IMG/VR virus record: IMGVR_UViG_3300025128_000076
Coordinates: 1 to 47,161 of that record
Source of the DNA: a virus
Strand: one strand, 5' to 3'
DNA: 47,161 nt
Under the pieces are notes generated by a model. That model did not search any database. It saw only the letters and a list, made by a program, of their open reading frames with translations, and was not told the DNA's origin. The position numbers and the translations under genes are program-made. This document shows, piece after piece, positions 6,001 through 37,697 of the stretch; the stretch's first letter is position 1, and each line of letters opens with the position of its first letter.

Positions 6001-9000
6001 CTGCCCACTGGGTTTGGATTCCAAGTATGTGCTGTATGAGTAGCGTCGAGATGTATTTTCATACTGTTATCAGGTCCGGGAAAAATACCATCTTTTACAT
6101 TTTCAAAGAAGAAATCATGGAATAAAGGTATTTCGACCATTGCTCTTGTTGAGGAATACTGACTACCTAATTGGTAATCGTGCTGAACATTACTCATAGA
6201 TTGGAACATTCTGTCATTAATCGTAGTTCCGTCTTCGCACATCGATTCCTCTGTAAATTTGTCATCGATGTATAGCAAGTCACCTTTGGCCAATCCAACT
6301 GCAGTAACCCAGTCGGCAAATGAACTGATGCCAATATCATCAGGTCCTGTTGAAAACCTATTGTCAGGTTCAGACTGTGCATTGGCGTCGAATTCAAACT
6401 TAGTACTGGTCTTGTATTGGTATTCGGCACTTGCACCTGATTCCAAATAGACCTTGCCTTGGCTAGGGAAACAGTATGTTCCCCATGACTGTAAATCATC
6501 AGCGCTATTTCTAAGAGGCTTAACCGTAATAGAATGGTTGGTTTTGCTACCTAGAGCAGCGTGTGCACTGCCTGTAGTAATATCTGTAATCTCAACAGCG
6601 CAGTCCCTTCTTGTATTCCACGGTAAGCGTGCCAAAGGACTTGGGTCCCAAGTTTCCTTTGTATTCACCGCACCTTGTCCGGGACCTCCGAGAGTAACTG
6701 TAACTACAGGAGAGCCCGGCATTATCTCCTTTACGATATTAGAGTCAGAGGAGGCTGCCCCTTTGACATTAACACTACTAGACGCTATATCATTAACTAG
6801 TCCATAGGCCAGCATATTGTAATTATTCTCAGCATCTTGGTCGAAAGACAAAACCTTGGCTTTAGTCGCTAAGTACTCAATGGTAAATTTATTAGGATTA
6901 ACTACATCTATACTTAACTTAGATAACTGTGTGAATTTTCTTCTATCAGAAGGTTGGATGATGAGGCTACCAGTGTTACCGTCAGTCGTATGCTCTATTA
7001 TATCGAACAATTCATTGACTATAGTAGATTGATTGGTACTACCTTTTCCTAAAATTTGAGGGCCGTTAAATATCTCTGCGTTATTAACGACTGCTACAGC
7101 AGTGCCTCCTCCGACTGTAAGAGCAGCAGATGCCACTGCAGTTAGTTCACCTATCTTAGCACCGTCTGCCCTATATATTACGTCGCCTACTTCAAAGTTT
7201 TCTGTAGCATCATTGCCGTCAACGACCATGGCGCTAGTTGTAGAAGCAGCATAACCATCAGGGGTACCGCTGGCTTGATTGATGAATACACCCGACCTTT
7301 CACGCTCCCCGTTGGTAGGCTTTCTACGACTAACTGTTCCGCTTTCTTCAAAGTCACCAGTAGTATCAGTAGTCTGTCTTATCATTATTTTATGAAATTC
7401 AGAAGGACGAGAGGTCAGTTCAGTCTGAACAACAGCGATTGGCTGAGGTGTCTTTTGAGGAGAATCTGTGCTAACCAAAGGTAGGTAATTTTCAGGACAA
7501 AGAGAAAGGTCCAACTGATTTTCTACAATAAGTCCTTCCGAATCTTGCCCTTCTAATTCCCCGTCTTTGTATGGGAATAACTGGGGCTTATCGAATTCAA
7601 TTCTACCTCCCGGAGAATAAATGTCAAAACTACCTACCTGTAGGCTGTCTTGGATTAAATCTATTATTCTAAAGGACCCTGTCAAAACAGTACTTACGTC
7701 AGGGAATGTTTTCTCTACCAAGATTTTAGGAGTATATGCACTTATACTAACGATTGCACCTTTGCTATCTAATGCTTGGAAAGCACCGGTGCTGGCAGAA
7801 GAAAAGGTCAAAGTCTTTGCAGAATGACTAACAGTAGCAGTGACACCTACGGTGGTACTGGCAGGAGTACCGTTAATTGAAACCACGTTAGCAGGTATTG
7901 TTTCATTGTCTTGCCCAAAGCACTTGATGCTTTCTAAAGACAAAACTGTAGAAGTACCGTCTTTAGTAAGCCTAGATGTAGCCTTTGTACTAAATAATTC
8001 TCCTCTTCTATCTACCGCATTATAGTGAATTTGAATAAATGGGGCATAGTTATATTTCTCAAGTTGAGGTACATTTAAGATGGCTATTCTACTTTCGGTG
8101 GAAGGTATAATTGCACTAATGTCGTCAGAAGAAGAGCCTGATAACGACTTTAATGAAAATAAATCTGCATCAAAACCGGGCCCTCCCATAGCCAAAATTT
8201 TACGCTGACTATCATCTATATCAGCCATCCCATTTTCTATAATATACCGTACTCTACTTTTGTTAACAAAGTTGTTAATTTTAATTAGACCTGTACTATC
8301 ATAGGAAGAAACAATTGAATTAGGAGGCGCTATGTTCCTAATATCAGCATGCATCGCTGGGAAGGTTGCTGAGACAACGTCGGCAGAAACATCCAGTTTC
8401 TTTTCAACCGTGTGTACACTAGGCTCTGGTAAAATTCCCATAAATGGATGACTAGCGACGTGGTTGTATATATGACGACCACTGTGACCTGATAAGTAAC
8501 CTTTACCGGGATTTGTAGAAGTTGCAGAAAAAGAGTTGAATTCATGAGTATCAATTGCCATACTTAGCGAAAACATTATTCCATGATTAGCGAAATCACT
8601 TTCATCAATACAGACTTGTCCTTGGCGTTGAGAAAACTGAGTACCAGCACCTTGTGGTTGAAATTCATTGTTATTACCTTGGTCAACTATACAATCACCT
8701 GTGATTGTAACTATTTCAGAGCCCGATGCATGTGTTACCAGAAGCCCTCTATTACCATTTGTATTAACGAAATCACGATGAATAGACTCGACTGATAACT
8801 GCCCATTGGCAGTATTAATGGATAATAACCTAACTCTTTCTGGAGCCTTGTTGGTAGGCTTCCCAGTCAAAGGGCTGTACCCTCTAGGGTTAATCAGTAA
8901 ATTAAAAGGAACTTTGCTCGTAGTAACAGTACTACTGCTAGTCGCTGAGTATTTCTTAAAAGAATAGTCACCTTGACTATAAGGACTAGTAGTAAAATCA

Positions 9001-9857: not shown

Positions 9858-9858
9858 A

Positions 9859-12252: not shown

Positions 12253-14844
12253 TCATAGTATTATGTCAGCCGCTACGAATTTCAAACTAAACTCATAGGC
12301 TTTCATTTCTGCATCTCTCTGTACATTAAAGTCCATTACCATACCCTTTATTCCATTCTTTAAGTGACCATCTACGTTACTAGAAAAGGCTCTATTAGCA
12401 TGCACAGAATTGATAGTTGCTAACTTACCTGCTACGTTTTCATCCGTAGTTAAGAAGAAATTACGCTGTGCTATATCTGTATCAAAGGTAGACTGTCCAA
12501 AGGTAGCCTTACTATTATACGGAATCTGTATACCTTCTATGTAATCACCTTTAGTTTCAGGAGTACCTCTATACATATGTTCTTGGAAAAAGCCTCCTCC
12601 TAACGCATGTGCTCTTTCAACAACCCCTCCTCTTTCTGGTAAACCGAAGTTGTTAGAATTTCCCAATATACCAAATATATCTTGGACTTTGTCTCCACCA
12701 CTCTTTACCTTTTTACCAGCCCTACCGCCAGTAAATCCATGTATTTCAGGCATAATTCCTTCTGGCATTGTATTTACAATAGTGTTTGATAGAGCACCTA
12801 GAGAAGTAGCGTACTGCTGAGTTATGTTCAATTTGGTCTGATTTCCATTCTTCCCAGTGGTAATTACTACATCAAATACCTTGTCCATACCAGTATTACC
12901 TGTTGTATTTACTGCTTCCATACCCTGTAAATATTCGGCAGTCATAGCACCTTTCATAAGGAAAGCAATGTATTCGTCGGTTCTTGTATGACTAGCGCCA
13001 TCTCTGGCACTACCGTTTTGATAATTACTAGTAAAATCTGGCCCTATCGCTTTATCTGGAAGTGCATCTTCATCAAAAGTATCTGCGTTTTTTATAGGAA
13101 TGACAACGACAGGTTTGGTGGTATTACTGAACATGCCTCCTTCGTCGTAGTTGAAAGGAACGATGTATATCTCGTCACTGTCTTGAGGCGGGTCGCTACT
13201 ACCAGTGATATTGTATTCAACTACAATTTCTGTAGCAGATACCGAAGTTACCTTTCCTTTAAGCATACTCCAAAAATTACCTCCTCTAAATTGGTCAGTA
13301 GTAGGATTATAAAACACGACATAGTAATCTCTACCAGTCTCTGTGACTTCAAACCAAGACTGGGGCTGTTCGGCTACTCCTTCTGCACCGTAGCCCGGAC
13401 TACCCTCTACTGTCAATGTACCTCCTGAAACTCCCCCTGATGCGATTACTAAGCCAGTACTGCGGTGCATATTGAAAAACCCATACGGCTCCTTTGCAGA
13501 CGCAATCATTTCCTTATCGAATACAAATCTAATATGCTTGTTAGCGTAACTATACCCACTGTCATACTTATGGTTACTAGGTAAAGCAATGTTATATTTT
13601 CTTGAAAGGTAACCTTCTATCTTTTCCACTTCGTCAAAAGTTAGTTGCCTATTGTAGATTAATATCTCATAAATATTACCGTTTAGGTAATTTGTAACTC
13701 CGCCTTGGGTTACTCTACCGATGTCAAGAGCACCACTAGTATTCTTTGAATAAGTCTTACTACCTGTAGATGGAAGTTTAGGCTCTCCATTGATTCTTAA
13801 TTTTATAGTATCCCAAAGTGTATCGCCGTCACCGGTGTCGGTAGTTCTAACGGTAAGTACGTTAGGATAAGTTAGTGTTAATCCACTCCCAACTGAATTA
13901 GCACCAGTATTGCTCACGCCTGCAGAGCCCGAAGCATTGTGGCTTAAAATATCAATACTGTCACTACTACTGTTGTATCTAATAGCATAACCATCGTTAC
14001 CATTACGTGACATCAAAACCCCTCCAGCAGCATCACTGTTTCTTGATGAAACTACAAATATAGTGAGTTCATCAGGATTTAAGAATGGACTATTACTGGA
14101 GTCATAAGCATAAGATAAATAATGGGTCAAAGGAGATTTAAAATTAACATAAGAATGACCATTAGCACCCTCTTTAAAAAAGGTAGGCTGATAGTTAGAA
14201 TTACTCTGTAAAACATGCCTAGCATTACCGCTAGTATCGCCCCAACTTGCAACGCTGTCTCCATGTACAAGTGTGTCATCTAAAATATTAGCGTTAAGCC
14301 ACATCTGAAGACCAGTCTTAACAGGGTGGTCTAATTCGGCAGCCCTTTCTGTCCAATAAGCCACAGGTAAATCAATTGATTTTCCACTCCATTTATCCAG
14401 TATCTTATTACCTAGCGTAGGCATAACGACAACTGTAGGAGCACTGCCTATACCGCTGCTCCCACCACTACTACCTATTCCACCAATAGCACCTTGTCCT
14501 GCTGCAACAGAAGAATTTTGAGTTGTTCCAATAGAGGCAAAACCACTGGTGATGAGGCCGGGATTTCCCCCTCCACCTATTAATTGCGGACCAGTATTAA
14601 GCGCCTGAGGTTGGTCAAGGTCTATGGAAGCAGTCGCTTTAGCACTGGCTTCCTGACCAACATCATCGGCAAGTACTCCTTGTATTTCAAAAGCAACAGC
14701 GGCTTGATTTAAATCTATACCTATCTTTTTAGCGTCAAAGAAAGGTATTCCGAAATTACTCTGAGAGCGCTCAACAACAATATCTACGCTAGTAGCATCG
14801 AGAGAAATAGTGTCTCCATTCTCCTTAACAAGGCGAATAGGCAT
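12253..14844 (-). CDS. Tail-tip-like protein with inserted LamG (concanavalin-like) domain
   Basis: 863 residues from ATG 14844, which has GGAG six bases upstream; an in-frame GTG at 14889 would add 15 residues but lacks a good ribosome site, and the paralog also begins at the matching IPIRL. The N-terminal frame (GIDLN, GVLADD) and the C-terminal block (GDKVQ, GIQIPY, RNFFLT, FVAADIIL) match the 795-residue neighbour. Between them, roughly residues 185-425, lies a recognisable LamG-3-like domain: a VASWGDTSGN motif, a YVNFKS strand, TIFVVSS, and the closing NGNIYEILIYNRQLT and GYLSRKYNI. LamG domains usually bind glycans or proteins, so a tail-tip adhesin role is a reasonable inference. Confidence 0.82.
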   Translation of the reverse strand: MPIRLVKENGDTISLDATSVDIVVERSQSNFGIPFFDAKKIGIDLNQAAVAFEIQGVLADDVGQEASAKATASIDLDQPQALNTGPQLIGGGGNPGLITSGFASIGTTQNSSVAAGQGAIGGIGSSGGSSGIGSAPTVVVMPTLGNKILDKWSGKSIDLPVAYWTERAAELDHPVKTGLQMWLNANILDDTLVHGDSVASWGDTSGNARHVLQSNSNYQPTFFKEGANGHSYVNFKSPLTHYLSYAYDSSNSPFLNPDELTIFVVSSRNSDAAGGVLMSRNGNDGYAIRYNSSSDSIDILSHNASGSAGVSNTGANSVGSGLTLTYPNVLTVRTTDTGDGDTLWDTIKLRINGEPKLPSTGSKTYSKNTSGALDIGRVTQGGVTNYLNGNIYEILIYNRQLTFDEVEKIEGYLSRKYNIALPSNHKYDSGYSYANKHIRFVFDKEMIASAKEPYGFFNMHRSTGLVIASGGVSGGTLTVEGSPGYGAEGVAEQPQSWFEVTETGRDYYVVFYNPTTDQFRGGNFWSMLKGKVTSVSATEIVVEYNITGSSDPPQDSDEIYIVPFNYDEGGMFSNTTKPVVVIPIKNADTFDEDALPDKAIGPDFTSNYQNGSARDGASHTRTDEYIAFLMKGAMTAEYLQGMEAVNTTGNTGMDKVFDVVITTGKNGNQTKLNITQQYATSLGALSNTIVNTMPEGIMPEIHGFTGGRAGKKVKSGGDKVQDIFGILGNSNNFGLPERGGVVERAHALGGGFFQEHMYRGTPETKGDYIEGIQIPYNSKATFGQSTFDTDIAQRNFFLTTDENVAGKLATINSVHANRAFSSNVDGHLKNGIKGMVMDFNVQRDAEMKAYEFSLKFVAADIIL

Positions 14845-14866
14845 CCTTTCTCCGATGTCTACCAAA

Positions 14867-15349
14867 CTAACCACTCCTACTAAATCCACTTTGACTGAGC
14901 GAGCCGCCTAATTTGGACCTTACTTCTTTAGTGACCATTTCGCTAATCTGCTTAGCAAGTGCACGTTTATCACTTCTATCACTAACTCCACTGACGTCTA
15001 TACGAAGATTGACAGTGACGTTGGAGGCTTCTGGATTAGCATTGGTCATACCAGTAGGCTCCGTCCCTCTTTTGAGAGGAGAGCCGTCAGTTCTAGGATT
15101 GAGTGTTTTCTCAAGACCAGACTGGACTTCTTTGATTGAATCTTCCATTTGCTTGAAAGGTTCTGCACCTGTCATCTGCCTGAGAGATTCTCTCAAGTCA
15201 GTCGAATGAACCTTTGTCATAGCCATAGAATTAGTGAACTTATCCATCTGCTGCTGAAGACTCTTCATACTCTGATTGGATTCCTCAGCGTATCGCTTAA
15301 AATTCTCCATAGCCTCTACAGATTTTGGTTCTATATTTCCTTCCACCAT
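14867..15349 (-). CDS. Short coiled-coil tail protein, tape-measure-like C-terminus
   Basis: About 160 residues. ATG at 15349 has GGGGTGA five bases upstream; an in-frame GTG at 15358 overlaps the previous stop and would add three residues. The N-terminal half is charged and helical (Gln/Met/Lys-rich, probable coiled coil). A linker rich in Pro, Thr and Asn leads to a C-terminal segment with alternating hydrophobics (VTVNLRIDV) and an amphipathic helix (LAKQISEMVTKEV), a pattern I associate with the C-terminal end of tape-measure proteins. It sits after the tail-assembly chaperones, where a tape measure is expected, but is far shorter than the usual 600 or more residues. Function is inferred from position. 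Confidence 0.7.
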   Translation of the reverse strand: MVEGNIEPKSVEAMENFKRYAEESNQSMKSLQQQMDKFTNSMAMTKVHSTDLRESLRQMTGAEPFKQMEDSIKEVQSGLEKTLNPRTDGSPLKRGTEPTGMTNANPEASNVTVNLRIDVSGVSDRSDKRALAKQISEMVTKEVRSKLGGSLSQSGFSRSG

Positions 15350-23939: not shown

Positions 23940-25082
23940 TCACTTGATGTCACGGATAGAACCTTGACCTCCAAAGAAAGTAGTCCAAACTTCACCCATT
24001 GTACGGTAAAGTCCTTCCTGTCCTAGTCTGTTGATTGCGAACGGGTCGCCAGTCTCAATTCCAGACTCGAAGTATTGTGTTGGTTTTGCTGTACTGTAGT
24101 ACAAGTAATCAGTATCTAGCATGTAAATTCTACCGATACCGCTTGTTTCTTGCACCACGTCCTTAGATGGAATAATTGGTACACCGTTGTAAGTTGCGAC
24201 AATAAATCCTGCCTCAACACCCGGTACACCCTTAACACCGTTGTAAGTTGGTACAACTCTCTTCTCTTCCATGAATCTCTGTTGAGATTGTAGAAGTTGC
24301 TGAATTCTCATCAATGTATCATAGTGGGTTAAGATAACCTTAGGGTTACCACCACGGACCCAGATTTTCTGGAATAAGTCATCAATGTGGTCTAGGCTCA
24401 ATACACGGTCAGTTGCGCTAGTATGTGCGTTACCTTCTGCATATGACCACGAGTTAGCGGTTTCTCCTCTGTCGATGGAGTAGATGTCCTCGTCTCCAGC
24501 GGTGTAGTGAGTTCCAGCAGTCATTTGAGTAGTGTCAGCGACAGTAACTCTGTCAAGTGACTCAATGTCATTTCCTGCAGGTGTGTCTACATCTCCAGTT
24601 AACATTTGGTTGATGTGCTCTGCGTGGTGCTTACCCATCTCTTCTTTCAAGACTGAGCGGATGTCACCTAGACCGTCATCCTTATCGTTAAGGAAAATTG
24701 CTGTCTCAGACATATCGAATGAGTGAGCAACGGTCTTTGGCTTTGCAGCAACATGCTGGAAAGTAGGCTTGGTTGTGTCTGGTAGAGTTCCGTTCTCTGC
24801 AATACCGCCACCGACTGCTGTCGAAGGCTTTGCAGTAACAACTCTCCATCCAGAGCGGTCCCAAGGTTTCTTAGGTAGTATACTGAATGCGTTAAATTCT
24901 TGGTTTAGTTGTGACCACACTTTGCGGCCATAGATTGCTTGGTAAGTACCAGCGGTTGTGCTCAACAATGGTGCGTCTGCTTTCAAAAGTTCTGAACCAG
25001 TGTAGGAATATCCCATACTTTGTCCAGCACCATAGTAATAGCGCTCCATGTCGTTAACTGTTCTCATATAATTTCTTGCCAT
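23940..25082 (-). CDS. Major capsid protein, HK97 fold
   Basis: 380 residues between the prohead protease and head accessory genes, the canonical slot. The N-terminal third is followed by features typical of HK97-like capsid proteins: VWSQLNQEFNAFSILPKKPW, then a GGGIAENGTLPDT loop, an SFDMSETAIFL strand (start of the spine-helix/P-domain region), and a long helix HHAEHINQML. Later come GGNPKVILTHYDTLMRIQQLL and PIIPSKDVV, A-domain-like elements. The ATG is preceded by AGGAGATGATATT, one of the best ribosome sites in the window. No obvious crosslinking Lys/Asn pair can be assigned by eye. Confidence 0.85.
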   Translation of the reverse strand: MARNYMRTVNDMERYYYGAGQSMGYSYTGSELLKADAPLLSTTAGTYQAIYGRKVWSQLNQEFNAFSILPKKPWDRSGWRVVTAKPSTAVGGGIAENGTLPDTTKPTFQHVAAKPKTVAHSFDMSETAIFLNDKDDGLGDIRSVLKEEMGKHHAEHINQMLTGDVDTPAGNDIESLDRVTVADTTQMTAGTHYTAGDEDIYSIDRGETANSWSYAEGNAHTSATDRVLSLDHIDDLFQKIWVRGGNPKVILTHYDTLMRIQQLLQSQQRFMEEKRVVPTYNGVKGVPGVEAGFIVATYNGVPIIPSKDVVQETSGIGRIYMLDTDYLYYSTAKPTQYFESGIETGDPFAINRLGQEGLYRTMGEVWTTFFGGQGSIRDIK

Positions 25083-25112: not shown

Positions 25113-26468
25113 TTATTGCCATACACTTCCTGCTAAGGCGTGTACTTCATCCCATCCCATGCTTCCAAGTTCCTCTGTTGAAGGAATCTCGATGGTGGAA
25201 TTGTCAGTTGCTTTGCGAATTTCTGTTCCTGCAACCGGTGCAACACTAATGTTGTCAATACGGTCACTTAGGTCAGCGATTGCTTTCTCAATGTTAGTTA
25301 GCGGTGCACGAGCATCGAACTGTGCTGCTGCACGAGCCTCTGCTTCATGGTTAAGTTCCTTTGCAAGTCTGTCTGAAAAGACATTTTCCAAAGAGCCTTT
25401 GAATCGCTCTTCCATAGCAGCGGCCTTGTATACTTCATAGGCTGCTTCTACGTCAGCGGAACTAACGTCTGCTGGGTTCAAGTAACCTTTGGATACTTTT
25501 CCGACAGCGCCTGTTGAAGGTGAGCCTGCTTCAGTCGCTCGTCCCTTAACTTGTCCGTTCATTTGTTCTTCCGGGAATTGTTCCGGTGTGCTACCAAGGT
25601 TTGCTTTTGCAACATCATCAAAGTGAGTACGTGCTTCTGAAATGTTAACACCCTGAGATTTCAGTGTGTTTTCCATCCAGTTCAGGTATTCGCTTGTGAT
25701 AACATCAGAATAAGGCTCGCCCTTCTCTACTTCTTTATCATCTGTTTTATCAGCCATTTTTTCATCGTCCTTTTTTTCTTTTTTTGGTGAATCATCTTTT
25801 TCTTCAGGGGCGTCATCGTCTTTCTTATCTTCCATGAATGGAGGCAAGTCTGCCTTTTCCATAGCGTCTAATCTTCCGTTCAAACGGCCTAGAACTGTAG
25901 ATAGTTCTGCCATAGTATCAGTTTCTGTCATATCTGTGTCCTCCTTCAATATACGGAATGTCGCCTCCGGGTTTATACCTTTTTCACAAATTGTTACCTC
26001 ATGTAGTTCTAACTTAGAGATTTCTGTATAGTCTCCATGTTTATCATCGGCTTTCTTCATTCTCTTGAATGCTTGTCCACCAATGCTGAACCCCCTGAGG
26101 GCACCTTTGCGAATATCATTAGCCACTTCACGGGCCTTTTCTATGTCATCTCTTAGTTTGATGACAACGAACATACCAGCGTCATCGACGCCAGATTTCC
26201 AAACTCTTCCATCAGAGTCTGTATATTCAGGTATAACACTTCCAACCTGAATATTTGAATGGGCTAGTTGAACATTACGGAAGTCTTCTGCTTTCATAAA
26301 GTCACCAAAAGCATTCTTCAATGCTCCTCTTGTAATAAGGTCACCTTGTTTATCGACCATTTCAACCGATGCGTATCCTGCTATTACAAGGTCATTTGCA
26401 CCCTTGACAATACTAATGCTACCCTCGTGACGAACGGGGGAAGTTCTTAGTGACGCCATGGCTGCCAT
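25113..26468 (-). CDS. S78-family prohead protease fused to scaffold domain
   Basis: 451 residues. Residues 15-175 form an HK97-type serine protease: IAGYASVEMVDKQGD, the histidine in LAHSNIQVG (H70), the nucleophile in LRGFSIGG (S128) and the acidic partner region LHEVTIC (about 155-161). The remainder is highly charged, with a Lys/Asp/Glu-rich linker (about 190-250) and helical segments typical of a scaffold or delta domain. The last 15 residues (MGWDEVHALAGSVWQ) share a motif with the 125-residue protein at 32313-32690. Protease fused to scaffold upstream of the capsid gene is a common design. Start at M1 or M4; neither has a clear ribosome site. Confidence 0.85.
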   Translation of the reverse strand: MAAMASLRTSPVRHEGSISIVKGANDLVIAGYASVEMVDKQGDLITRGALKNAFGDFMKAEDFRNVQLAHSNIQVGSVIPEYTDSDGRVWKSGVDDAGMFVVIKLRDDIEKAREVANDIRKGALRGFSIGGQAFKRMKKADDKHGDYTEISKLELHEVTICEKGINPEATFRILKEDTDMTETDTMAELSTVLGRLNGRLDAMEKADLPPFMEDKKDDDAPEEKDDSPKKEKKDDEKMADKTDDKEVEKGEPYSDVITSEYLNWMENTLKSQGVNISEARTHFDDVAKANLGSTPEQFPEEQMNGQVKGRATEAGSPSTGAVGKVSKGYLNPADVSSADVEAAYEVYKAAAMEERFKGSLENVFSDRLAKELNHEAEARAAAQFDARAPLTNIEKAIADLSDRIDNISVAPVAGTEIRKATDNSTIEIPSTEELGSMGWDEVHALAGSVWQ

Positions 26469-26496: not shown

Positions 26497-29400
26497 TCAA
26501 TAAGTACGGAGGGTAGCAGAGTCGTTAGTAAGTTCCAACTTACCTTCTTCTACTGGAATAGTAATGTGCTTAACAGGCTTTTCGTCTTGCGTTCCCGGCT
26601 CTATAGAAGAGTCTTCTCCGGGGCGTTTTTTGTTATCATAGTCAGGCATTGTCTTAGAATCGTGTAGGTTAGTCGGGCCAGTAGGCGACTCTATAGGAGT
26701 AGCATAATCTATACCTAGTCCCATAGTACCTGTACTAGACTGACCAACAGAGCCTACTCCACTTTTCATCATTCTTTCTAACAGTAAAAGACCCTTGACC
26801 AATACTTTACCTTTGTCTTCCTCTTTCCACCAATCAGTATCTTTGACTTTCTTAGGTTTAATGAAAGGCTTAGTAGGACCGGGTTCATAACTGTCATCAT
26901 GAACTTCTTCCTTTTCTGTAATTTCAAGACCAGCCTTTAGCATTGTACCTGCTACTGGCCCCCAGTAAGGTCTCTGTGTTTCAGACAAACGTATGAGATA
27001 CGAGTTATTAGCCAATGGACTATGTAATGACCAATTACCACCGGACTCTGTCGCTTTGTAAACCACATCACCTTGTGGCATGACTATACGAATTCCAGAA
27101 GGTACGCTTGTAACTTCGCATAGCCACTGTTTAATTTCAGATTTAGCAAGTAGGCCCAGTGTCTCTTGACTAACTAGTCCTTCACTTTCTGCCTCTCCTT
27201 GTATTTCAGAGCCTGTAACTGTATACAACTTGTGCCCTTCGCTAAATTCAGACTCACCTACGTTATCGACGTTTACCTTAACATGGTCACCTTCGTTGAA
27301 TTTCTCTTTACTATCGAAAACTGCACCTACATCCATGTAGGTTTCCTTATTGAGTTCTACAGCCCTATCACCTAGACTTTCATCTTGTGTAATTGGACCT
27401 GTACCTAAGCGGTAAGTGTAAGGACCGCTTCCTCTTCTTTCCAATACAATCAAAACTACATCCTTGCCTTCTGACAATAGAACCCACTTTGGTTGACGAA
27501 GTTCACCTACCATGTAGGTAGACTTAGCATCTCTGAGTAATAACCTATCATTATCTTTCTTCAAATCTTCCACAGTAGACTCTAGTCCACCATCATCGGT
27601 TAACCTAGTATCACTAGCACTAGGTATGTGTATGTTCTCTACTCCTTCCATACCGCCTCTTAATATTTTGATACGGGCATCGAGTAAAGTATCGTGTACT
27701 TCTTTGCCATCAAACTTGATAACGTCAAATACATAGTAGCCTTCTTCAGTTTTAATGACATCAACATGATAATCGTCATCAGCAACTTTCTTAAAATTCT
27801 CTTTGTCTTCATCTGATAACTTAAAGGAAGGAGAGGTAACCTTGTCGTCTTCTTTAACTACAAAGCCCCTTTCACCTTCAGGCATAACTGAAACTATCCA
27901 GTCTCCTGTAAATCCACGCAGATGCTCTAAGTCCTCAAGTTTGAATATACGGTGCATAGGCTGAAGTAAAGGTATGTCTTTACCCAAATCCTTCCTAATG
28001 ATATCAGGATTAGTTAAGTCGGCAAGTCCTATTTTAGATTTCAAAGCCGAAGTCCCATCGACATTATGCAAGTAAACCCTTCCTCTTTCACTTGGCTGAA
28101 ACTGAGGAGGCTGCCTTCCTATTGCACTTAATGCACTGATTGCATTCGGGTTACCTACTAAGTGATTTAGATGAGGAAACGCTTCTCTTATACTCCTACT
28201 CAAAGGCCTAACTATATTACTAGGAATTCCTTCAGCAACAGGTGAGTATTCGACTTCATGTGTATCGGGATTTATGTGCCAATCAAAGGTAGGATGCATA
28301 TGTCTTCTCAAACCATCATCGTGATGCTGGTCTCCCATTTCAAAATTATATCCTGCAGAATTATAGTAAGAGCCGACACTATCCGTATGAGGACCATATG
28401 CGTCTATGTTAACGTCACCCATACCAAACTGTTGTCCCATAATAGATTCCAAATCCTTAGGTTCAACTGTAGGGTCACTTATCAAAATACTGTTTAAGTC
28501 TTGGAGAGCACGGAATCTTCTTGCTGTATTTTGAGCAGTACTACCTTGCTTTTTACCAGCAGTAGTAGGGTCAGTTGATAATTTACTACTAGGGTCAGGA
28601 TTATGGGCAATGTGGTAATCAAGTCCTAACTCTGACTTTTTCTCCTCCGTGCCAGTCTTAACAGTCCTTGCCTTACCTTCTCTTGAAGAAAGGTCTCTCC
28701 TAACTCTATTAATTGTATTAACAGTCCCTTTATTCTTATTGTAAGTCTTCTTGTCATGTATGCGGTTTACCATGTCCGATAAGCCTGAGCCCAAATCTCC
28801 ATAATGGTTGGTAGAAGAAAGCATTTGTTCAACTGTCATAACAGGGAAGCGAAGTGAAGTATCACCTGTATCTGCAATCCTACTATGTAACTTTTCTAAT
28901 AAAGAATCAACTGTAGCCCTATTTCGCTCATCGTTATAATCAAGGTTTAGCATTTCAGCAACTTCTTCTCCGGTACTACCTGCCCCAACTGTGTTCTCAC
29001 TATTATGCACACTTTGCTTTACTGCAGGTGCTTGTCCTACATCACCTCCTTGTTGGTGATAACCTGTACTTCTAGTCTGTAAACCGTGCATTTCATGAGG
29101 GGCTTGTTGAAGGTACGTGTTGCCTAATCGGAAAAGTTGTCTGATATTAGCGTCTAATGTCTCAACGGGCAAATGCTCTCCGAACAAATTATTCCATAAT
29201 TCAGGGTCACTTGCTTGTAGCCGTTGACTAAGCATACCAGTCATCTTAGCGATAGCACTTTCATCAGCGTTTATCTTTTCTAACTCAGCCGGACCATGAG
29301 TTCTCATAGCAGTCCCACCTATTTCAGCACCTATGCCTTCAGGAGGTTCAGCATTCAATTCGTCAAATTCATCTTCCAATTCGTTTAACTGATGCATAAG

Positions 29401-31860
29401 GTGCTCTTTGTGCTTTTCCGTAAGTCCTCCTTCACCTAGTTTATCTTCAATGTTCCTCATTCTTTCAAATAAGCGATTCATCTCATCTTGCTTTTCAGCA
29501 ACTTCTCTTTCTTCTGGCGGAGTACCTGTCACTTTACCCATACCTATTTCTCTTTCACGAGTTAAAGCGTCGATAGCCTGAGTAGTTGGTTGGGTTGCTC
29601 CCTGTCTACCCAGTTCCAATATACCATTATCATTAGTAAAAGGAGCACCATTCTTATGCCTCATTGTTCCTACTCTATGCCATAAATGAGCAAGTCTTCT
29701 TTTAGAGCGTTCATTATTAAGTGCACCTTCTTGTGTCCCTAAGAATGGATTAAATCCTGCCATAGCGCCGCTAAACTTACCACTGAGTTTATCCTTTATT
29801 CCTTGCCAACCGGGTTTACCGTAATTAACATGCAATTCCTTAGCATGTATATTATCGGACTTGGCATTTAAACTACCATGATGCCTCATCCAATTTCTAC
29901 GCCTAGTACCTAGTTTAGAAGTAAACCATTTATTTTCTGGATTATGAATAGACTGGCTGTCATCGGCTATACCTCCACTTACTTTGTACTTCTTTCCACC
30001 TTCGTCTGCTTCAGTAATTTCTGCTTCAGGACTACCCCAAGGCCCCATTGCACCTAGCATACCGCTGTGTAATTTTTCACCCGTTGAATCTTTGTAATGC
30101 CTTATACCAATAGTATTAGTTAGTTCATTTTTATCAAATAGTAAACTACGCATAGCCCTCTGAGGACTCATAGTTTGCTGTTGACTTTCTGGCAAGTCTT
30201 CTTTTTCTTTATCAGCGAAGAACTGTCCATAACCATATTCGTCAACCTTTTCCTGCTCTTCGCCGATTCCAATACTACCTTCGGGTGACATTTTATCAGC
30301 ACCATACAAAGGAGTCATGGCGTGTAATAAGTTCTTGAGTTCATTAGGTAATTTACCGAAGCCCCCTCCTAAAAAGGGCTTATTCCAATGAGAAGCAAGT
30401 GTAGTGTTTTCGCCTCCAGTAATGTCTTCGGGATAATGATTGGGGTCGACATGGTGACCATAATGCCACATTCCGAAATTTTCTCCCATTACACCATAAT
30501 CATCACTAGTATTAGCATCACTAAGGTGTTGAAAGACATTATCTACATCAACTTGGCTAAATGGACTATCAGACTTTTTCCAATCTTCATAGTCAGGATG
30601 CTCTCCGTCACTATACAGTTCTCCTGTAGAAGGATTTACGTTAAGTAACCTAAGTAATTCTGCTCTCCTTAATCCTCCTTTCTTATGAGCGCCTTTAGAA
30701 CCAAACTGTAAATTTCCATCTCCATCAATGTAAACCTTGTCACTACTAATGCCGACCCCTTGTCTATCAGCGTGCCACTGAACAGCCTTTGAAAGTGCAT
30801 CTCCTCCTAATGATAACAAAGCATCACGATTTAATTCAGGCCTTATCTTAGGCTTACCGATTGGTTGAGGTATAAATTCTACTGGTTGTCCGGGACTCAT
30901 AGGGTCTCTAGTCCAATGGTCAGCCATACCAGTAAATCTTTGCTGAAAGTTTCTAACTAACCTACCTACATCAGTATGATTATCAGCACCTATAGACCTA
31001 CGGTCTCTGTCATTTGTTCCCCATTGTGACATGTGTCTGTAAACTTCATCTCTTTGCTTAGGAGACTTCCATTCTAATCCGAATAGATAATCGAATAAAC
31101 CTAAACGATGTGGAATACCATTTTCATCAGTTGTATCTGACATCCAGCGTTCTTTGGCTTCACCCATGTGCATTTTTCTTAACTCATGCTCTGCTTCCAA
31201 ATCACTAAATCCTTGTTCTTTCAAAGCAAGTTCTTCGTTAACCTTGTCTTTCTTCCAATCACCGAAGTGCGTTTCATATTCGTCATGGTTACTGTATTTC
31301 AAATCTCCATAATGATGGTGACCGAATAAAAATGAATAATTTTCATCAGAAGAATATTCTCCTTCAATGTCCTTTTCTTTCTCTGCATCGACATAACTTA
31401 CAGAATCTGCCCCTGCTTGGGACGGTAAGTAAAAGTTAGCAACAGAATTTACCTTACCACTAAATCCTTGTGTATCTACTCGATACAAAGGATTGAATCT
31501 ATAATCGAATGGATTATGGTTTTGGTATTGGTCACCAACTTCTCCTTGTGTTAATTCAGGGATGTAGCCTGCTATACTCTGTCCCGGCTGAACTCCTAAA
31601 ACACGATTACTGTCAATCGAGTTTTCATAAACTTCTTGACCAGAATAACCTAGACCTGAGTCTTCTTCAGCCTTAATGACCGAATGGAACATTTTAATCA
31701 AAGCATTATCGTCATCAGACAAAATATAACCTTGTCTTTTGGCACTAACCGTAGATAAGAAAAAATCAGCACCTGCGTCAGCCTTGCCGATACTATCTCC
31801 GAGCGAATGTAAAAAAGTACTCCTGTTCCTATCAAGGATGTCAAGATGGCCTTCTCGCAT
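26497..31860 (-). CDS. 1787-residue head-module protein with degenerate DNA-ligase-like domain
   Basis: Lies between small head proteins and the prohead protease, where minor head or ejection proteins are usual. ATG 31860 has GGGTGATTT upstream. Residues 1-1280 are hydrophilic, His/Gly/Asn-rich, with a helical stretch around 780-850, and match nothing I know. Residues about 1295-1560 follow the order of an ATP-dependent DNA ligase: LQPMHRIFKLEDLEHL entry, MPEGER (1326-1331) where KxDGxR should be, FDVIKFDGKEVHDTLLDARIK (motif III region), RLLLRDAKSTYMVGE (motif IV region), KWVLL (motif V), VVLIVLERRGSG, then an OB-fold-like VGAVFDS...EGDHVKV. The catalytic lysine is Met and motif V lysines are absent, so ligation or adenylation activity is unlikely. 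A structural or DNA-binding role is inferred. Confidence 0.75.
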   Translation of the reverse strand: MREGHLDILDRNRSTFLHSLGDSIGKADAGADFFLSTVSAKRQGYILSDDDNALIKMFHSVIKAEEDSGLGYSGQEVYENSIDSNRVLGVQPGQSIAGYIPELTQGEVGDQYQNHNPFDYRFNPLYRVDTQGFSGKVNSVANFYLPSQAGADSVSYVDAEKEKDIEGEYSSDENYSFLFGHHHYGDLKYSNHDEYETHFGDWKKDKVNEELALKEQGFSDLEAEHELRKMHMGEAKERWMSDTTDENGIPHRLGLFDYLFGLEWKSPKQRDEVYRHMSQWGTNDRDRRSIGADNHTDVGRLVRNFQQRFTGMADHWTRDPMSPGQPVEFIPQPIGKPKIRPELNRDALLSLGGDALSKAVQWHADRQGVGISSDKVYIDGDGNLQFGSKGAHKKGGLRRAELLRLLNVNPSTGELYSDGEHPDYEDWKKSDSPFSQVDVDNVFQHLSDANTSDDYGVMGENFGMWHYGHHVDPNHYPEDITGGENTTLASHWNKPFLGGGFGKLPNELKNLLHAMTPLYGADKMSPEGSIGIGEEQEKVDEYGYGQFFADKEKEDLPESQQQTMSPQRAMRSLLFDKNELTNTIGIRHYKDSTGEKLHSGMLGAMGPWGSPEAEITEADEGGKKYKVSGGIADDSQSIHNPENKWFTSKLGTRRRNWMRHHGSLNAKSDNIHAKELHVNYGKPGWQGIKDKLSGKFSGAMAGFNPFLGTQEGALNNERSKRRLAHLWHRVGTMRHKNGAPFTNDNGILELGRQGATQPTTQAIDALTREREIGMGKVTGTPPEEREVAEKQDEMNRLFERMRNIEDKLGEGGLTEKHKEHLMHQLNELEDEFDELNAEPPEGIGAEIGGTAMRTHGPAELEKINADESAIAKMTGMLSQRLQASDPELWNNLFGEHLPVETLDANIRQLFRLGNTYLQQAPHEMHGLQTRSTGYHQQGGDVGQAPAVKQSVHNSENTVGAGSTGEEVAEMLNLDYNDERNRATVDSLLEKLHSRIADTGDTSLRFPVMTVEQMLSSTNHYGDLGSGLSDMVNRIHDKKTYNKNKGTVNTINRVRRDLSSREGKARTVKTGTEEKKSELGLDYHIAHNPDPSSKLSTDPTTAGKKQGSTAQNTARRFRALQDLNSILISDPTVEPKDLESIMGQQFGMGDVNIDAYGPHTDSVGSYYNSAGYNFEMGDQHHDDGLRRHMHPTFDWHINPDTHEVEYSPVAEGIPSNIVRPLSRSIREAFPHLNHLVGNPNAISALSAIGRQPPQFQPSERGRVYLHNVDGTSALKSKIGLADLTNPDIIRKDLGKDIPLLQPMHRIFKLEDLEHLRGFTGDWIVSVMPEGERGFVVKEDDKVTSPSFKLSDEDKENFKKVADDDYHVDVIKTEEGYYVFDVIKFDGKEVHDTLLDARIKILRGGMEGVENIHIPSASDTRLTDDGGLESTVEDLKKDNDRLLLRDAKSTYMVGELRQPKWVLLSEGKDVVLIVLERRGSGPYTYRLGTGPITQDESLGDRAVELNKETYMDVGAVFDSKEKFNEGDHVKVNVDNVGESEFSEGHKLYTVTGSEIQGEAESEGLVSQETLGLLAKSEIKQWLCEVTSVPSGIRIVMPQGDVVYKATESGGNWSLHSPLANNSYLIRLSETQRPYWGPVAGTMLKAGLEITEKEEVHDDSYEPGPTKPFIKPKKVKDTDWWKEEDKGKVLVKGLLLLERMMKSGVGSVGQSSTGTMGLGIDYATPIESPTGPTNLHDSKTMPDYDNKKRPGEDSSIEPGTQDEKPVKHITIPVEEGKLELTNDSATLRTY

Positions 31861-33079: not shown

Positions 33080-34870
33080 TCATGCCCCTTTGAAATTACG
33101 AGCATCTAATATATTTTGAGAAGCCTGTTGAACTCCGCCCATCGGCATACCTCTTTGTTGTACGCTAGAAACAGGTGACCCCGCTCCCATAGAGGTTCTA
33201 TTCTGAGGACTGGCTGGGCTTCTTGGGGTACGAATTCCTTGTCCTTCTCCTCCCGGTTGGCCCATTTGTGATTGCCTTGCCATCTGCGCAGCGCCCTGTG
33301 GACTAATGTTACGGCTAGGTAAAGCACCCGGCGTACCCATACCTCCGCCCATTTGCATACCGGGCATTCCACCGCCCGGAGGCATACCGCCCGGAGGCAT
33401 ACCGCCACCCGGAGGCATACCGCCCGGAGGCATTGGAGGTTGCTCTGCAGGGTCTGGTTGCTTGTAAACGAAACGTATGTCTCTGTTAGCATCTTCTGCA
33501 AGTTCAGGTTTGTAACCAAGCATCATCATACGTTGTGCGATATTAACTTCCATCTCGTCACGGCGTAAGCGAGTAACTTCGTCCTCTTCTTCGTTAGGAT
33601 AAAGTGTGAGTTTCCAATCACTGATGTCCATCTCTTCCATAAGTCGTGGGAATAAATGGTCAGTGTATACCTTGTGGCCGAATTCAACTGCCCTATTAGT
33701 AACTAGAATCTGCATACCTTCGTTATTAAGGCCTCCAGATTTACCAGTGTCCATCATAAATACATTAGATACGCCATAGAAAGAAGCAATCCTCTGCCTC
33801 ATTTCGTCACGAGCAGGGATATATTGCATCTCTTCAAGCGTATCCATGAACTTAACCCAATTGACTCCGCCTTTACCTGTACTGGATTCTATACCAATCT
33901 TAGGAATGTAATGTGGGTCACGCTCTAACTTTTCATCCATACTCTTGAAGAAAGACTTCATTGATTCTAAGTTATCTGTAGTTACTGAAATCAAACCTTT
34001 TGGCATCCTTCTCTTACTATAAGACGTATACATGTAATTATCCATAGCAGTAAGAGTCATTGCTTGTCTCCAAAGTGTAGAGACAGGGCTTCTTCCATAC
34101 AACTTGCCCGGTTGATACTTACTCAAATGTATTACTTCTCCCTTGAGATAGTACTGTGTTTTACCACTTCCTGCAGTATTGACGTGATGTACATCTTCTA
34201 ACTCATGTCCGCAAATATCGCAAGACTTTTCTTCTTCACTGTAAGACTTAACATTGTCACGATGAACGGGACAGACACGATACCTACCACCTCTAACTCC
34301 ACGCTTATCTGCAATGATACGCATAAATATAGGGTCTCCTCTTACTACTTCTTTGATGCGATAAAACTGAACTTTGTTTGTCTCTTCGTCAATATAGTAC
34401 TCTTTAATTAGAATTAAGAAAGCATCGTCTGTGATGTTTAAGTCATACTCTATCTCTCTGAGTACATCCATAAAGGTCTGCTCCATAGAGTTCCTTTGGT
34501 CTAATAACCACTTAGCATATACTATTTGATTCGGGTCAGGAGAAACTAATTCGTTACTCCCGCACTGCTCGCATGTATCCATATCATGCTGATACTCCTT
34601 TTCACAAGCGGTGCATTTCTTTTGGAAGGACTTATCCCAATAGTATCCTCTACGGAATATTTCTTGCTGAAGAGTAGTCAAGACAGTACGGAGGATTAAG
34701 TTTTCACTAGCAACTGAGTAAAGAGCAGGTATGGTAATACCCTGTACTAAAACGGGCTCCTGAATACCAGTAGTCCACAGAGGCATCTGAGGCTCAGGAG
34801 TTCTACGACGACGAAATGGATTACCAATCGATTCTACTAATCTAGCAATTCTTCCCTTTTTCTCAGCCAT
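33080..34870 (-). CDS. Portal protein with two inserted zinc ribbons and PPGG repeats
   Basis: 596 residues directly after terminase and the LAGLIDADG gene. Portal-like features are the SVASENLILRTVLTTL helix, VIHLSKYQPGKLYGRSPVSTLWRQA (clip/wing region), a MKSFFKSM helix, and RQRIASFYGVSNVFMMDTGKSGGLNNEGMQ, typical of portal wing/stem regions. Two zinc-ribbon-like inserts are present: C86/C89/C100/C103 and C200/H203/C217/C220. The C-terminal 120 residues are low complexity, with MPPGG repeats and Gln/Met/Gly-rich sequence. It forms the DNA entry ring at one capsid vertex. The zinc ribbons are unusual for portals and may be extra interaction sites. Confidence 0.85.
   Translation of the reverse strand: MAEKKGRIARLVESIGNPFRRRRTPEPQMPLWTTGIQEPVLVQGITIPALYSVASENLILRTVLTTLQQEIFRRGYYWDKSFQKKCTACEKEYQHDMDTCEQCGSNELVSPDPNQIVYAKWLLDQRNSMEQTFMDVLREIEYDLNITDDAFLILIKEYYIDEETNKVQFYRIKEVVRGDPIFMRIIADKRGVRGGRYRVCPVHRDNVKSYSEEEKSCDICGHELEDVHHVNTAGSGKTQYYLKGEVIHLSKYQPGKLYGRSPVSTLWRQAMTLTAMDNYMYTSYSKRRMPKGLISVTTDNLESMKSFFKSMDEKLERDPHYIPKIGIESSTGKGGVNWVKFMDTLEEMQYIPARDEMRQRIASFYGVSNVFMMDTGKSGGLNNEGMQILVTNRAVEFGHKVYTDHLFPRLMEEMDISDWKLTLYPNEEEDEVTRLRRDEMEVNIAQRMMMLGYKPELAEDANRDIRFVYKQPDPAEQPPMPPGGMPPGGGMPPGGMPPGGGMPGMQMGGGMGTPGALPSRNISPQGAAQMARQSQMGQPGGEGQGIRTPRSPASPQNRTSMGAGSPVSSVQQRGMPMGGVQQASQNILDARNFKGA
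33371..33433 (-). repeat. 15-bp tandem repeat encoding MPPGG in the portal C-terminus
   Basis: Four near-identical units on the plus strand: accgcccggaggcat at 33371-33385 and 33386-33400, an 18-base variant at 33401-33418, and a final copy at 33419-33433. In-frame repeats encode a flexible Pro/Gly tail and could vary in number by slippage. Confidence 0.85.
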
Positions 34871-34872
34871 AT

Positions 34873-36180
34873 CTATACCTCAGGTGCCCAACTCATTACT
34901 GTATCTCGGTCTACTCCCCACTCTTTAAGTGATTCCTCACCTTTTTGAGTACCTTCACGATTTGAAAATTGAACAAATCTCTTTATTTCATCCTTGCGTA
35001 TAGGGTCTGCTTCCATAAGATAAGCCGATACAGCCTTGGCTTGTCTATCTTTCATACGAAGATGGGGAGTGATGCCTGCTAATAATTTAGTCAAGTCATC
35101 TTTTGAATAAAAACTAACACGGTGTTGACTTCTTTGTCCGTCTTTGTACACCTTTTGGTCTAATTGTAATTTACCAGCACCTATATTTTTGTACAATTCT
35201 TCACAATGAGTGCGTCCTCGGTCACCTGTAGCAATGAATCCTGCACGAGGCTCGCCTCTTTCAGTGATAGTAATATAACCATCTGCATCAAGGAAGCCCG
35301 CTGCATAAGCCCAAGGGTCTTTGATAATCAGTCCCTCTTTACCTATGCACATATACTCACCCTTTCTATGGGCTTTGATGATATTAATTTCTTCACCGTA
35401 TAATTTCAATAAACTAGACAGCCTATTTGAATTAATTCTAGTAACGCCCTTTTCGATAAGATTACCAGTGATGGTCCTAGCATTCATAGAGCCATGCTTT
35501 TCAATTTCCGCTTTGGCTAAGTTTAGCCACTTTTGCTGTTCTTTATTTAGATTATCAAACTGATGTAAAGCAGTCTTCCACATCTTACGAGCATCTTTCT
35601 TAAGTTGCATAGCATTAACCCAACTTAACCTTTCTTCTTCCCCCCATACGTCTTGGAATTCATCAAGTTGCTTTAGTGTAGATTCTGCATTATCCCAAGC
35701 ATTACATGCTCTCATCAAACTACTTTCTCTACTATTACCAAAAAGGCGCAAGGACTTGAGTGACTTATCACTTAACCCCAATTGACGCATAGTGTCGTGA
35801 TGAGAAACTGCCCAGTCTATTTTACTAAGAGTAGCGTCTACTTCCATACTCTTTAGTTTAATGACGTTAGAAATAATACCATCTATTTCTTCTTTAAATT
35901 CCTTGTGTACTCTTCTGGCCTTTCTCAATTCTTTAACTAATTCAGTAGCACTCTTACCAACTTTGTCTTCAAACCAACCCTCTCCAGTTATAGGGAATGG
36001 TACATAATCAGGACTAGGTAGTTCTTCTTCTTTCAAGATTATAGTTTCGGAAGCGATTGATTTAGCAATCGTCTCATTTACCAACGGGTGAGTGACTAAA
36101 GTAGATGCTATAAGAGAATGAATAGGGCTATCCATATCTAAATTATGACTAGACTGACCAACCGATAATGAACCCCACAT
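34873..36180 (-). CDS. Single-motif LAGLIDADG protein with long helical N-terminus
   Basis: 435 residues between large terminase and portal; ATG has GGGGAGAAGTAT upstream. Residues 293-301 read AAGFLDADG followed by YITITERG, a classic LAGLIDADG helix and first strand. RVSFYSKDDLTKLLAGITPHL and KDRQAKAVSAYL complete one domain, so it would act as a dimer. The first 280 residues are mostly charged helix (VKELRKARRVHKEFKEEIDGI and others) with a possible winged-helix near 225-260. Neighbouring terminase and portal are intact, so it is freestanding and not an intein. The large helical domain suggests either a specialised homing endonuclease or a domesticated packaging cofactor. Confidence 0.8.
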   Translation of the reverse strand: MWGSLSVGQSSHNLDMDSPIHSLIASTLVTHPLVNETIAKSIASETIILKEEELPSPDYVPFPITGEGWFEDKVGKSATELVKELRKARRVHKEFKEEIDGIISNVIKLKSMEVDATLSKIDWAVSHHDTMRQLGLSDKSLKSLRLFGNSRESSLMRACNAWDNAESTLKQLDEFQDVWGEEERLSWVNAMQLKKDARKMWKTALHQFDNLNKEQQKWLNLAKAEIEKHGSMNARTITGNLIEKGVTRINSNRLSSLLKLYGEEINIIKAHRKGEYMCIGKEGLIIKDPWAYAAGFLDADGYITITERGEPRAGFIATGDRGRTHCEELYKNIGAGKLQLDQKVYKDGQRSQHRVSFYSKDDLTKLLAGITPHLRMKDRQAKAVSAYLMEADPIRKDEIKRFVQFSNREGTQKGEESLKEWGVDRDTVMSWAPEV

Positions 36181-36218: not shown

Positions 36219-37697
36219 TCAAGCGACGAACCAAGCCCCCGCTATGCTACTTTGCCCAGAGTCTCCGAATATACTGTCAAAGCCGGGCATATAGTCATCC
36301 AGTGATACAATCGAGCCTCTGAATTCTTTCGTAGCCCAATTAGACAATGCCAAACTCATGGCCAAGTCGTCGTGAGAGCCAACAGATTCAAGTCTTCCGT
36401 TTTTCTGCATTCCAAATCGACTTAACTGGGTCTCTAACTCACGAGTAAATTCTTTACTCTTTTCATTGCCCCAAGGAGTCTTAATTTTACCCTGCTCAAA
36501 TGCCATAAGTAATGACATAAACATGCTTTCTTTGCGCTGCTTGGTTGTCATAAATGTCTTGATTGGAATGTCATCCCTCATTTCTTGTAACTCTGCTGCA
36601 AACATTCGTTGAAAATTGTTACCTTCAAGTTCAATTAAATCAGGTTGGAATCTATTATTGAGTAAAATTATCTGACGTTTCTGTGCAGCACCACCAAGTC
36701 CCTTTTCATTCAATACATATACCAATTGCTTTTCTTCAGTGTCAGGAAGTACCCTAAGTACACTCATTGCAGTATAGTCTGCGTTGGAATCAGAAGCAAT
36801 TGCTGGGTCCCAGCCAATGAAATGTTGTCCGAATACACCTGCAACCTCGCCTTCTTCATCAAATTCTTGTTCCGCTCTATCAAGTAATATCAATTCTTTA
36901 TCCCTTGCTTTTTCTAACAAGGACATAGGGAACATACTAGATAAGTCGTGAATAGGTTCGCAGAGATATTCACGGGCGAATCTAATCGCAGGCATAGATT
37001 CTTCACGAACCTTTAGCGCATCTAACGGCCATCGATTTGGCCAAAGCGGTTCGCCATTAGGTAAGATAGCCGGATAAGTTTCGACTTGGAATGCATCTTT
37101 GTCTTCCAATTCTGCGTACAGGTCATTGTATGAAAAAGGTGTACCGACCATCATGAGGCGACCCGTGTGGTGCAAAACCGGAAGTAAAACAGTATAGAAC
37201 CAATCGGCTGCTCTTTGTAATTCAGAAGCAGTGGTTCCCCAAAGAATATCGTCGCATACTACTACATCGGGGTGGAAACCACGAGTAGCACCACCAACCG
37301 ACTTAGCCATAATACGACTACCATTAGTGAATTCAAAATAAGATTTAGCCCAAGGCTTACCAGTTGGCTTGAGATGACTTAGAATCTCATTACTTTCTAT
37401 ATTATTGCGGATGAAACGCATATGTTCCAAGGTCTGCTCTAGGCTGTGACTGAATACCATGACGTGAGTCTTAGGATTAAATGCTGCAATCCAAAGAGCA
37501 TAACTCATGAAGAATACAGATTTACCGTGGTCACGAGACGCCTTAACACAATAGTAGCGATTTTCATTCAGTCCTTTTTGCCACTTTTTGTGGTGGTCTG
37601 AGAAGTCGAATCCCAAGATATCTGTGAAGAAATACTTGAATGACTTAGAGCACATCTGTAAATCAATGTCCCTGACGAGTTCATCCACCCCTGCCAC
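36219..37697 (-). CDS. terL: Terminase large subunit (ATPase-nuclease)
   Basis: 492 residues. ATPase: Walker A-like ASRDHGKS (53-60), Walker B VVVCDD (145-150), and coupling motif MVGTP (183-187) before FSYNDLY. Nuclease: FIGWDPAIASD (D297), LIELEGN (E356/E358) and SHDDLAMSLALS (D443/D444), the usual RNase-H-like acidic set. All expected motifs are present, so it is probably active. It translocates DNA into the prohead through the portal and cuts the concatemer. A putative small terminase lies four genes upstream in the same operon and the portal lies two genes downstream. Confidence 0.93.
   Translation of the reverse strand: MAGVDELVRDIDLQMCSKSFKYFFTDILGFDFSDHHKKWQKGLNENRYYCVKASRDHGKSVFFMSYALWIAAFNPKTHVMVFSHSLEQTLEHMRFIRNNIESNEILSHLKPTGKPWAKSYFEFTNGSRIMAKSVGGATRGFHPDVVVCDDILWGTTASELQRAADWFYTVLLPVLHHTGRLMMVGTPFSYNDLYAELEDKDAFQVETYPAILPNGEPLWPNRWPLDALKVREESMPAIRFAREYLCEPIHDLSSMFPMSLLEKARDKELILLDRAEQEFDEEGEVAGVFGQHFIGWDPAIASDSNADYTAMSVLRVLPDTEEKQLVYVLNEKGLGGAAQKRQIILLNNRFQPDLIELEGNNFQRMFAAELQEMRDDIPIKTFMTTKQRKESMFMSLLMAFEQGKIKTPWGNEKSKEFTRELETQLSRFGMQKNGRLESVGSHDDLAMSLALSNWATKEFRGSIVSLDDYMPGFDSIFGDSGQSSIAGAWFVA

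Follow-up and report, generated by a model that had tools for sequence, protein, structure and literature searches.

The window analysed here, i.e. the whole stretch of DNA of 47,161 bases, is a single viral record, and almost all of its long open reading frames are encoded on the minus strand. Along this strand, the genes encoding the large terminase, an HNH-like protein and the portal, three small ORFs, the gene of a giant protein of 1787 amino acids and the genes encoding the prohead protease and the major capsid protein follow one another (Table 1). An earlier reading of this DNA, made from the sequence only, had assigned the giant protein to the head module, and the gene order shows this label to be correct. 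The reading frame of the giant protein is open and real according to the ORF list of the window. Within the portal, residues 80-105 form a weak zinc-ribbon-like stretch scoring below the cut-off. On the tail side, an open frame of 3288 amino acids (3-9866, minus strand) leaves the left end of the window and has no Pfam match at E 0.001. An ORF of 878 amino acids (12253-14889, minus strand) contains a laminin-G/concanavalin-like domain (E 9.9e-6, just below the cut-off) and perhaps encodes a receptor-binding protein.

Table 1. Genes of the head module and segments of the giant protein in the window.
Feature	Coordinates	Strand	Remarks
Large terminase	36219-37697	-	Head module
435-aa ORF between terminase and portal	34873-36180	-	HNH endonuclease family phrog_5046, E 4.8e-7
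Portal	33080-34870	-	Head module
Giant head-module protein, 1787 aa	26497-31860	-	Between portal/small ORFs and prohead protease
N-terminal region, residues 1-1271	28048-31860	-	Rapidly evolving region without Pfam domain; net charge of -54
Putative pseudo-nucleotidyltransferase domain, residues 1290-1463	27472-27993	-	PF01068, model, Foldseek, VIA-align, mean identity 53%
Motif I equivalent MPEGER, residues 1326-1331	27868-27885	-	Met replaces adenylated Lys of ligases
Motif III equivalent, residues 1367-1369	27754-27762	-	DVI replaces DGE
Motif IV equivalent, residues 1438-1444	27529-27549	-	DRLLLRD replaces EGxxxKD
Motif V equivalent, residues 1457-1463	27472-27492	-	PKWVLLS replaces xxWxKxK
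Predicted OB-fold domain, residues about 1464-1577	27130-27471	-	Model and superposition; missing in L111/L114/L117 clade
Predicted extra beta module and two helices, residues about 1578-1645	26926-27129	-	Model; outside ligase-matched part
Conserved C-terminal motif SPxGPT...MPDxD, residues about 1725-1742	26635-26688	-	Invariant or near-invariant columns
Prohead protease (S78), next gene after giant ORF	25113-26468	-	PF04586, 7.1e-11
Major capsid protein	23940-25082	-	Head module

Five scans of viral contigs yielded 194 loci with relatives of the giant protein, several of which are repeat fetches of one contig. Two of these scans kept the best 80 of 146 and the best 80 of 226 matches, a choice biased to the closest relatives. 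In all 194 loci a homolog of the prohead protease lies directly downstream of the giant ORF; its frame opens somewhere from 67 bases ahead of the giant ORF's stop-codon end to 63 bases beyond it. The capsid gene follows downstream in 179 of the 194 loci (128 of 128 where there is room for it), and the portal gene is found upstream in 143 of the 144 loci with room. The reverse search, starting from the capsid protein, detected the domain in each of the 69 loci having at least 3.5 kb of upstream sequence. The 80 nearest among at least 568 matches supplied these loci, some of which are shared with the earlier set. The gene of the giant protein is a fixed part of the head module. A homolog of the 435-aa HNH-like ORF was detected by a permissive search in 146 of the 194 loci.

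The closest named relatives of the major capsid protein are those of haloviruses of the Druskaviridae such as HCTV-1 (32-33% identical). Furthermore, a family B DNA polymerase is encoded in all 23 long relatives of 73-109 kb. Magroviruses are characterised by a halovirus-related capsid protein, a family B polymerase, genomes of 90-110 kb and a host belonging to the Poseidoniales. The capsid relatives, the polymerase and the sizes of the records fit this group, to which the virus would most likely belong. Magroviruses are tailed viruses of Poseidoniales (PMC12999244, PMC10768690) and, according to a passage in PMC7318539, widespread in surface seawater. An HMM of the full-length giant protein gave no match in the region between portal and capsid gene of HCTV-1 and vir519, indicating that other proteins occupy this gap there. 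In the Druskaviridae, the gap contains a protein of 1211 amino acids (HCTV-1, positions 7744-11376), annotated as zeta-toxin domain and gpF-like protein. It is another case of a nucleotide-enzyme-like domain in a large head-module protein.

The giant protein itself has no match in PHROGs, and its N-terminal region gave no Pfam hit above the cut-off in the five members searched. Residues 1290-1577, by contrast, constitute a homolog of the catalytic core found in ATP-dependent DNA ligases. The sequence-only reading had pointed to this part of the 1787-aa ORF by the motif MPEGER (residues 1326-1331), the strings FDVIKFDGKEVHDTLLDARIK and LLLRDAKSTYMVGE and the motif KWVLL, all of which are present. 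Pfam PF01068 and PF04679 and TIGR00574 served as the reference ligase families. When the window record was searched in six frames, PF01068 matched the domain at E 4.3e-6 (21.2 bits); the alignment is confined to profile positions 95-200 of 204, the C-terminal half. The scores obtained for the protein of the window (21.2, 16.9, 19.4 and 20.5 bits) missed the Pfam cut-off of 26.2 bits every time. Taken alone this match is weak; it becomes firm once the relatives are added. PF01068 matches all 17 close orthologs and all 72 diverse relatives (33-81% identical to the window) searched as single proteins, with a best E-value of 7.7e-8 among the latter. TIGR00574 also matches 17 of 17 close orthologs. 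The PF01068 cut-off is passed by nine of the 23 related long records; in G022, also one of the 23, the domain scores only 12.5 bits.

A search of the PDB with a profile of the 72 relatives found the ligase of Thermococcus sibiricus (4eq5, E 1.8e-4), human LIG3 (7.2e-4) and another Thermococcus ligase (0.0066). These alignments place position 1326 opposite the catalytic lysine. The same register was obtained by profile-profile comparison with seven known ligases (probability 72%, E 3.3e-5); with other hhalign settings the probability was 40% (E 3e-4) and the register differed around motif I. The hhalign controls reached at most 2.3% for ten column-shuffled profiles and 0.2% for the capsid protein. 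Hence the hit to ligase profiles, the A_M family included, which had been named as a check of the earlier claim, was obtained with PF01068 in each diverse relative, with ligases of the PDB by profile and by profile-profile comparison. The search of the PDB with the single sequence of the window protein gave a chance match only. A tblastn search of 50,697 phage records with the domain yielded no matches, and of 100 stretches found by the diverse profile in genome contigs none was confirmed. PF04679, the ligase OB domain, had no sequence match in any of the 23 long records, and no N-terminal ligase DNA-binding domain was detected by Pfam.

An AlphaFold model of residues 1290-1645, based on the alignment of 72 diverse sequences, reached a pLDDT of 84 and a pTM of 0.72. 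The model calculated with the 17 close orthologs and including the tail was unusable (pLDDT 32.7). A Foldseek search of the PDB with the good model gave DNA ligases or complexes containing a ligase in all 50 matches listed (best E 3.3e-10). VIA-align matched it to human LIG1 with a Z-score of 17.7 (265 residues, rmsd 7.8) and to the ligase of T. gammatolerans with 16.6 (262 residues, rmsd 4.5 Å). Superposition on 9df9 covered model residues 1-287 with an rmsd of 4.5 Å across 262 residues, and the ligase superpositions span only this part, i.e. the nucleotidyltransferase and the OB domain. A ligase core fold composed of these two domains is thereby confidently predicted for residues 1290-1577. 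The comparison of the predicted structure with ligases, likewise named beforehand as a check, came out in favour of the claim. By predicted fold and motif order the domain would belong to the covalent nucleotidyltransferase superfamily, though as a member without activity.

The residues responsible for catalysis were compared in 140 unique sequences, counting the window and after removal of identical ones and of the truncated loci L112 and L119. Position 1326, corresponding to the lysine of motif I, is occupied by Met (52), Trp (33), Tyr (22), Phe (19), Leu (9), Gln (3) or His (2) and never by Lys. The earlier statement that the adenylation motif reads MPEGER, with Met for the catalytic Lys, therefore holds for the window, and its relatives have no Lys at this site either. 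The Glu of motif III (position 1369; Ile in the window) is replaced by Ile, Val, Phe, Thr, Ala or Leu and never present. The Lys of motif IV (1443) is Arg and the first Lys of motif V (1461) is Leu, Met, Val or Ile in all 140 sequences. The Glu of motif IV (1438) is retained in 39 and the second Lys of motif V (1463; Ser in the window) in 26 of them. On the other hand, the Arg of KxDGxR (R1331), the Asp of DGE (D1367) and the RD following motif IV are found in 140 of 140, and the run SxYxxGExRHPKW is almost invariant. In the seven real ligases used as positive control, the motif I Lys, the Glu of DGE and the lysines of motifs IV and V were all intact. A Lys one residue early (position 1325) occurs in 30 sequences. 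As a shifted catalytic lysine it was rejected, being one residue out of register, and also because the motif III, motif IV and first motif V residues are gone in all 140.

Judged by these replacements the domain is a pseudo-ligase and should be catalytically dead. This bears on a published view of these viruses. In the two ICTV profiles, the replication proteins named for magroviruses include an ATP-dependent DNA ligase (PMC12999244, PMC10768690), and PMC10160649 credits nearly every group of magroviruses with a gene for a DNA ligase. Together with the nine of 23 relatives scoring above the PF01068 cut-off, this would speak for a working ATP-dependent ligase of the viral replisome. Such an enzyme is highly improbable here, given the absence of the nucleophilic Lys and the replacement of three further catalytic positions in every sequence, the lack of an N-terminal ligase DNA-binding domain detectable by Pfam and the location of the gene in the head module. 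An active ligase was dropped as an explanation, since the replaced catalytic positions already contradict it. A dead ligase core built into a large head-module protein, as proposed by the sequence-only reading, is supported by both the sequences and the predicted structure.

That reading had also called the domain degenerate. This is right in so far as the catalytic residues are lost, but the domain is not decaying: no other part of the protein is conserved as well, and it has invariant residues of its own. In 1500 sampled pairs, the mean pairwise identity was 53% for the nucleotidyltransferase, 52% for the OB domain and 44% for the following module, compared to 23% for residues 1-1271. Conservation being highest in the ligase-like domain, random decay was dropped as an explanation. 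Strictly invariant columns number 23; the family-specific residues were assessed from sequence alone. In a ranking of 159 windows by low entropy, the block from motif IV to motif V comes 14th. The blocks at motif I (89th of 164) and motif III (126th of 166) show average conservation, indicating that selection is not focused on the whole of the old cleft. By these sequence measures the cleft appears to be strongly kept in part only.

One clade (L111, L114 and L117) lacks the OB domain; the deletion itself was seen in L111, and a short domain length in all three. The pseudo-nucleotidyltransferase, the following beta module with its two helices and the C-terminal motif (in L111) are retained even there. 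The nucleotidyltransferase part thus suffices alone in this clade.

Taking homology, predicted fold, lost catalytic residues, conservation and the fixed place between portal and prohead protease into account, we regard the domain as a captured core of an ATP-dependent ligase which no longer catalyses and has been retained as a binding module of the head-module protein, and assign to this reading a probability of roughly 0.78. The giant protein would be made together with the head, and the ligase shape without adenylation would hold something in or on the procapsid. First choice for the ligand would be the viral DNA, bound while it is packaged or ejected, be it at an end, at a nick or as a duplex on its way through the portal. 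Ligase cores grip nicked or broken duplexes between their domains and, even without adenylation, would be suited to hold the ends of DNA or DNA that moves through the portal. To DNA as ligand of the pseudo-ligase domain we give somewhat less than even odds. A simple clamp of the ligase type is hard to reconcile with the clade that lacks the OB domain. The net charge of the domain is acidic, but the same holds for the majority of the seven real ligases used for comparison (nucleotidyltransferase -15 to +2), and net charge was therefore dropped as an argument for or against DNA binding.

Alternatively, the fold might have been retained to serve the head in a structural or protein-binding role alone, for example by docking the giant protein to portal, protease or capsid, without contact to DNA. 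This differs from the binding module described above in the ligand only, and a docking role is nearly as likely as one in holding DNA. A docking part would leave unexplained why the OB domain is retained in nearly all clades. Furthermore, the Arg of KxDGxR, which is invariant here, contacts DNA or adenylate in ligases. What argues for docking is the fixed position between portal and protease, the dispensability of the OB domain in one clade and a surface at motifs IV and V that is conserved with family-specific residues, e.g. RHPKW. It is also consistent with a precedent in phage T4, whose ligase-fold protein gp63 acts in assembly apart from catalysis according to a section of PMC3004832.

Another possible ligand is a nucleotide or a cap-like molecule. 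Snurportin-1, a eukaryotic nuclear import adaptor, has a related fold without catalysis and binds the m3G cap. Its cap-binding domain (PF21974) was matched by 11 of the 72 members (best E 0.0035), and snurportin-1 appeared in the PDB search with the 72-member profile at E 0.07. All these matches are below the cut-off and weaker than those to ligases (17.0 bits for PF21974 compared to 27). Moreover, bulky hydrophobic side chains mostly occupy the site of the catalytic Lys. Among the remaining charged residues of the pocket that were tested, just two are retained, each in a minority of sequences, namely the second Lys of motif V and the Glu of motif IV. This makes a nucleotide in the old pocket less likely, and we consider a ligand of this kind quite improbable.

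A section of PMC7318539 describes a magrovirus genome, contig_156409, in which one read of 678 bp spans part of the ligase gene and of the prohead protease gene. This adjacency matches that seen in all 194 loci, so that the "ligase" of this genome is most likely the giant pseudo-ligase protein. In each of the 23 long relatives (73-109 kb), which were selected for holding the domain, PF01068 matched only once and always in the giant ORF; TIGR00574 was found in 18 of the 23, in giant ORFs only. None of them had a match for NAD-dependent ligase, the ligase OB family or RNA ligase. No second ligase besides the domain of the giant ORF was found in these 23 records, most of which are possibly incomplete. 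The ends were checked in ten of them, and one (G022, 107,632 bp) has a terminal repeat of 75 bp suggesting completeness. As no other ligase was detected in the long relatives, the viruses probably depend on the ligase of the host. The same observation is compatible with an idea in which the protein is ejected with the genome and serves as a decoy on nicks or for partners of the host ligase, protecting or steering the incoming DNA. The position among head genes would fit an ejected protein, too; on the whole we judge this idea improbable.

The little need of magroviruses for host factors in replication has been credited partly to their own DNA ligase (PMC10768690). If the published ligase gene is the one described here, magroviruses depend on the host ligase, and profile annotation has made a replication enzyme of a head-module protein. 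It is probable that the pseudo-ligase was misread in this way in the literature. More far-reaching, and in our view rather unlikely, would be that magroviruses as a group have no ligase of their own and that the enzyme credited to them is a dead domain of a giant virion protein, kept for gripping the ends or nicks of the genome at the portal as the DNA is packaged and ejected. The surprise is therefore twofold, a pseudo-ligase fixed in the head-module protein of a tailed virus and the probable misannotation as a replication enzyme. Pseudo-enzymes are known in general; our literature searches turned up no description of a ligase core fixed in the head-module protein of a tailed virus.

Compared to the ATP-dependent DNA ligases of archaea and eukaryotes (Thermococcus 6wbo, 9df9 and 4eq5; human LIG1, LIG3 and LIG4), the pseudo-ligase shares the order and the predicted fold of nucleotidyltransferase and OB domain as well as the Arg of KxDGxR, the Asp of DGE, the Asp after motif IV and the Trp of motif V. 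It differs from them in the replaced lysines of motif I, motif IV and motif V (first position) and the replaced Glu of motif III, in its fusion to a region of 1271 residues, in its placement in the head module and in having no N-terminal DNA-binding domain that we could find. The m3G-cap-binding domain of snurportin-1 is a binding domain as well, with a weak sequence similarity to the pseudo-ligase below the cut-off. T4 gp63, RNA ligase 1 and tail fibre attachment protein, is described in a part of PMC3004832 as an active RNA ligase that acts on the tail fibres and, in contrast to fibritin, does not become a component of the particle; its attachment role is separable from ligase activity. As far as this source goes, gp63 is catalytically active, whereas the pseudo-ligase has no catalytic residues and is a domain of a head-module protein. 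The "ligase" of the magrovirus literature (contig_156409, Aoguangviridae, Apasviridae) shows, in contig_156409, the same adjacency to the protease as our loci. There it is reported as a ligase, whereas here it appears as a dead domain ending a giant head-module protein.
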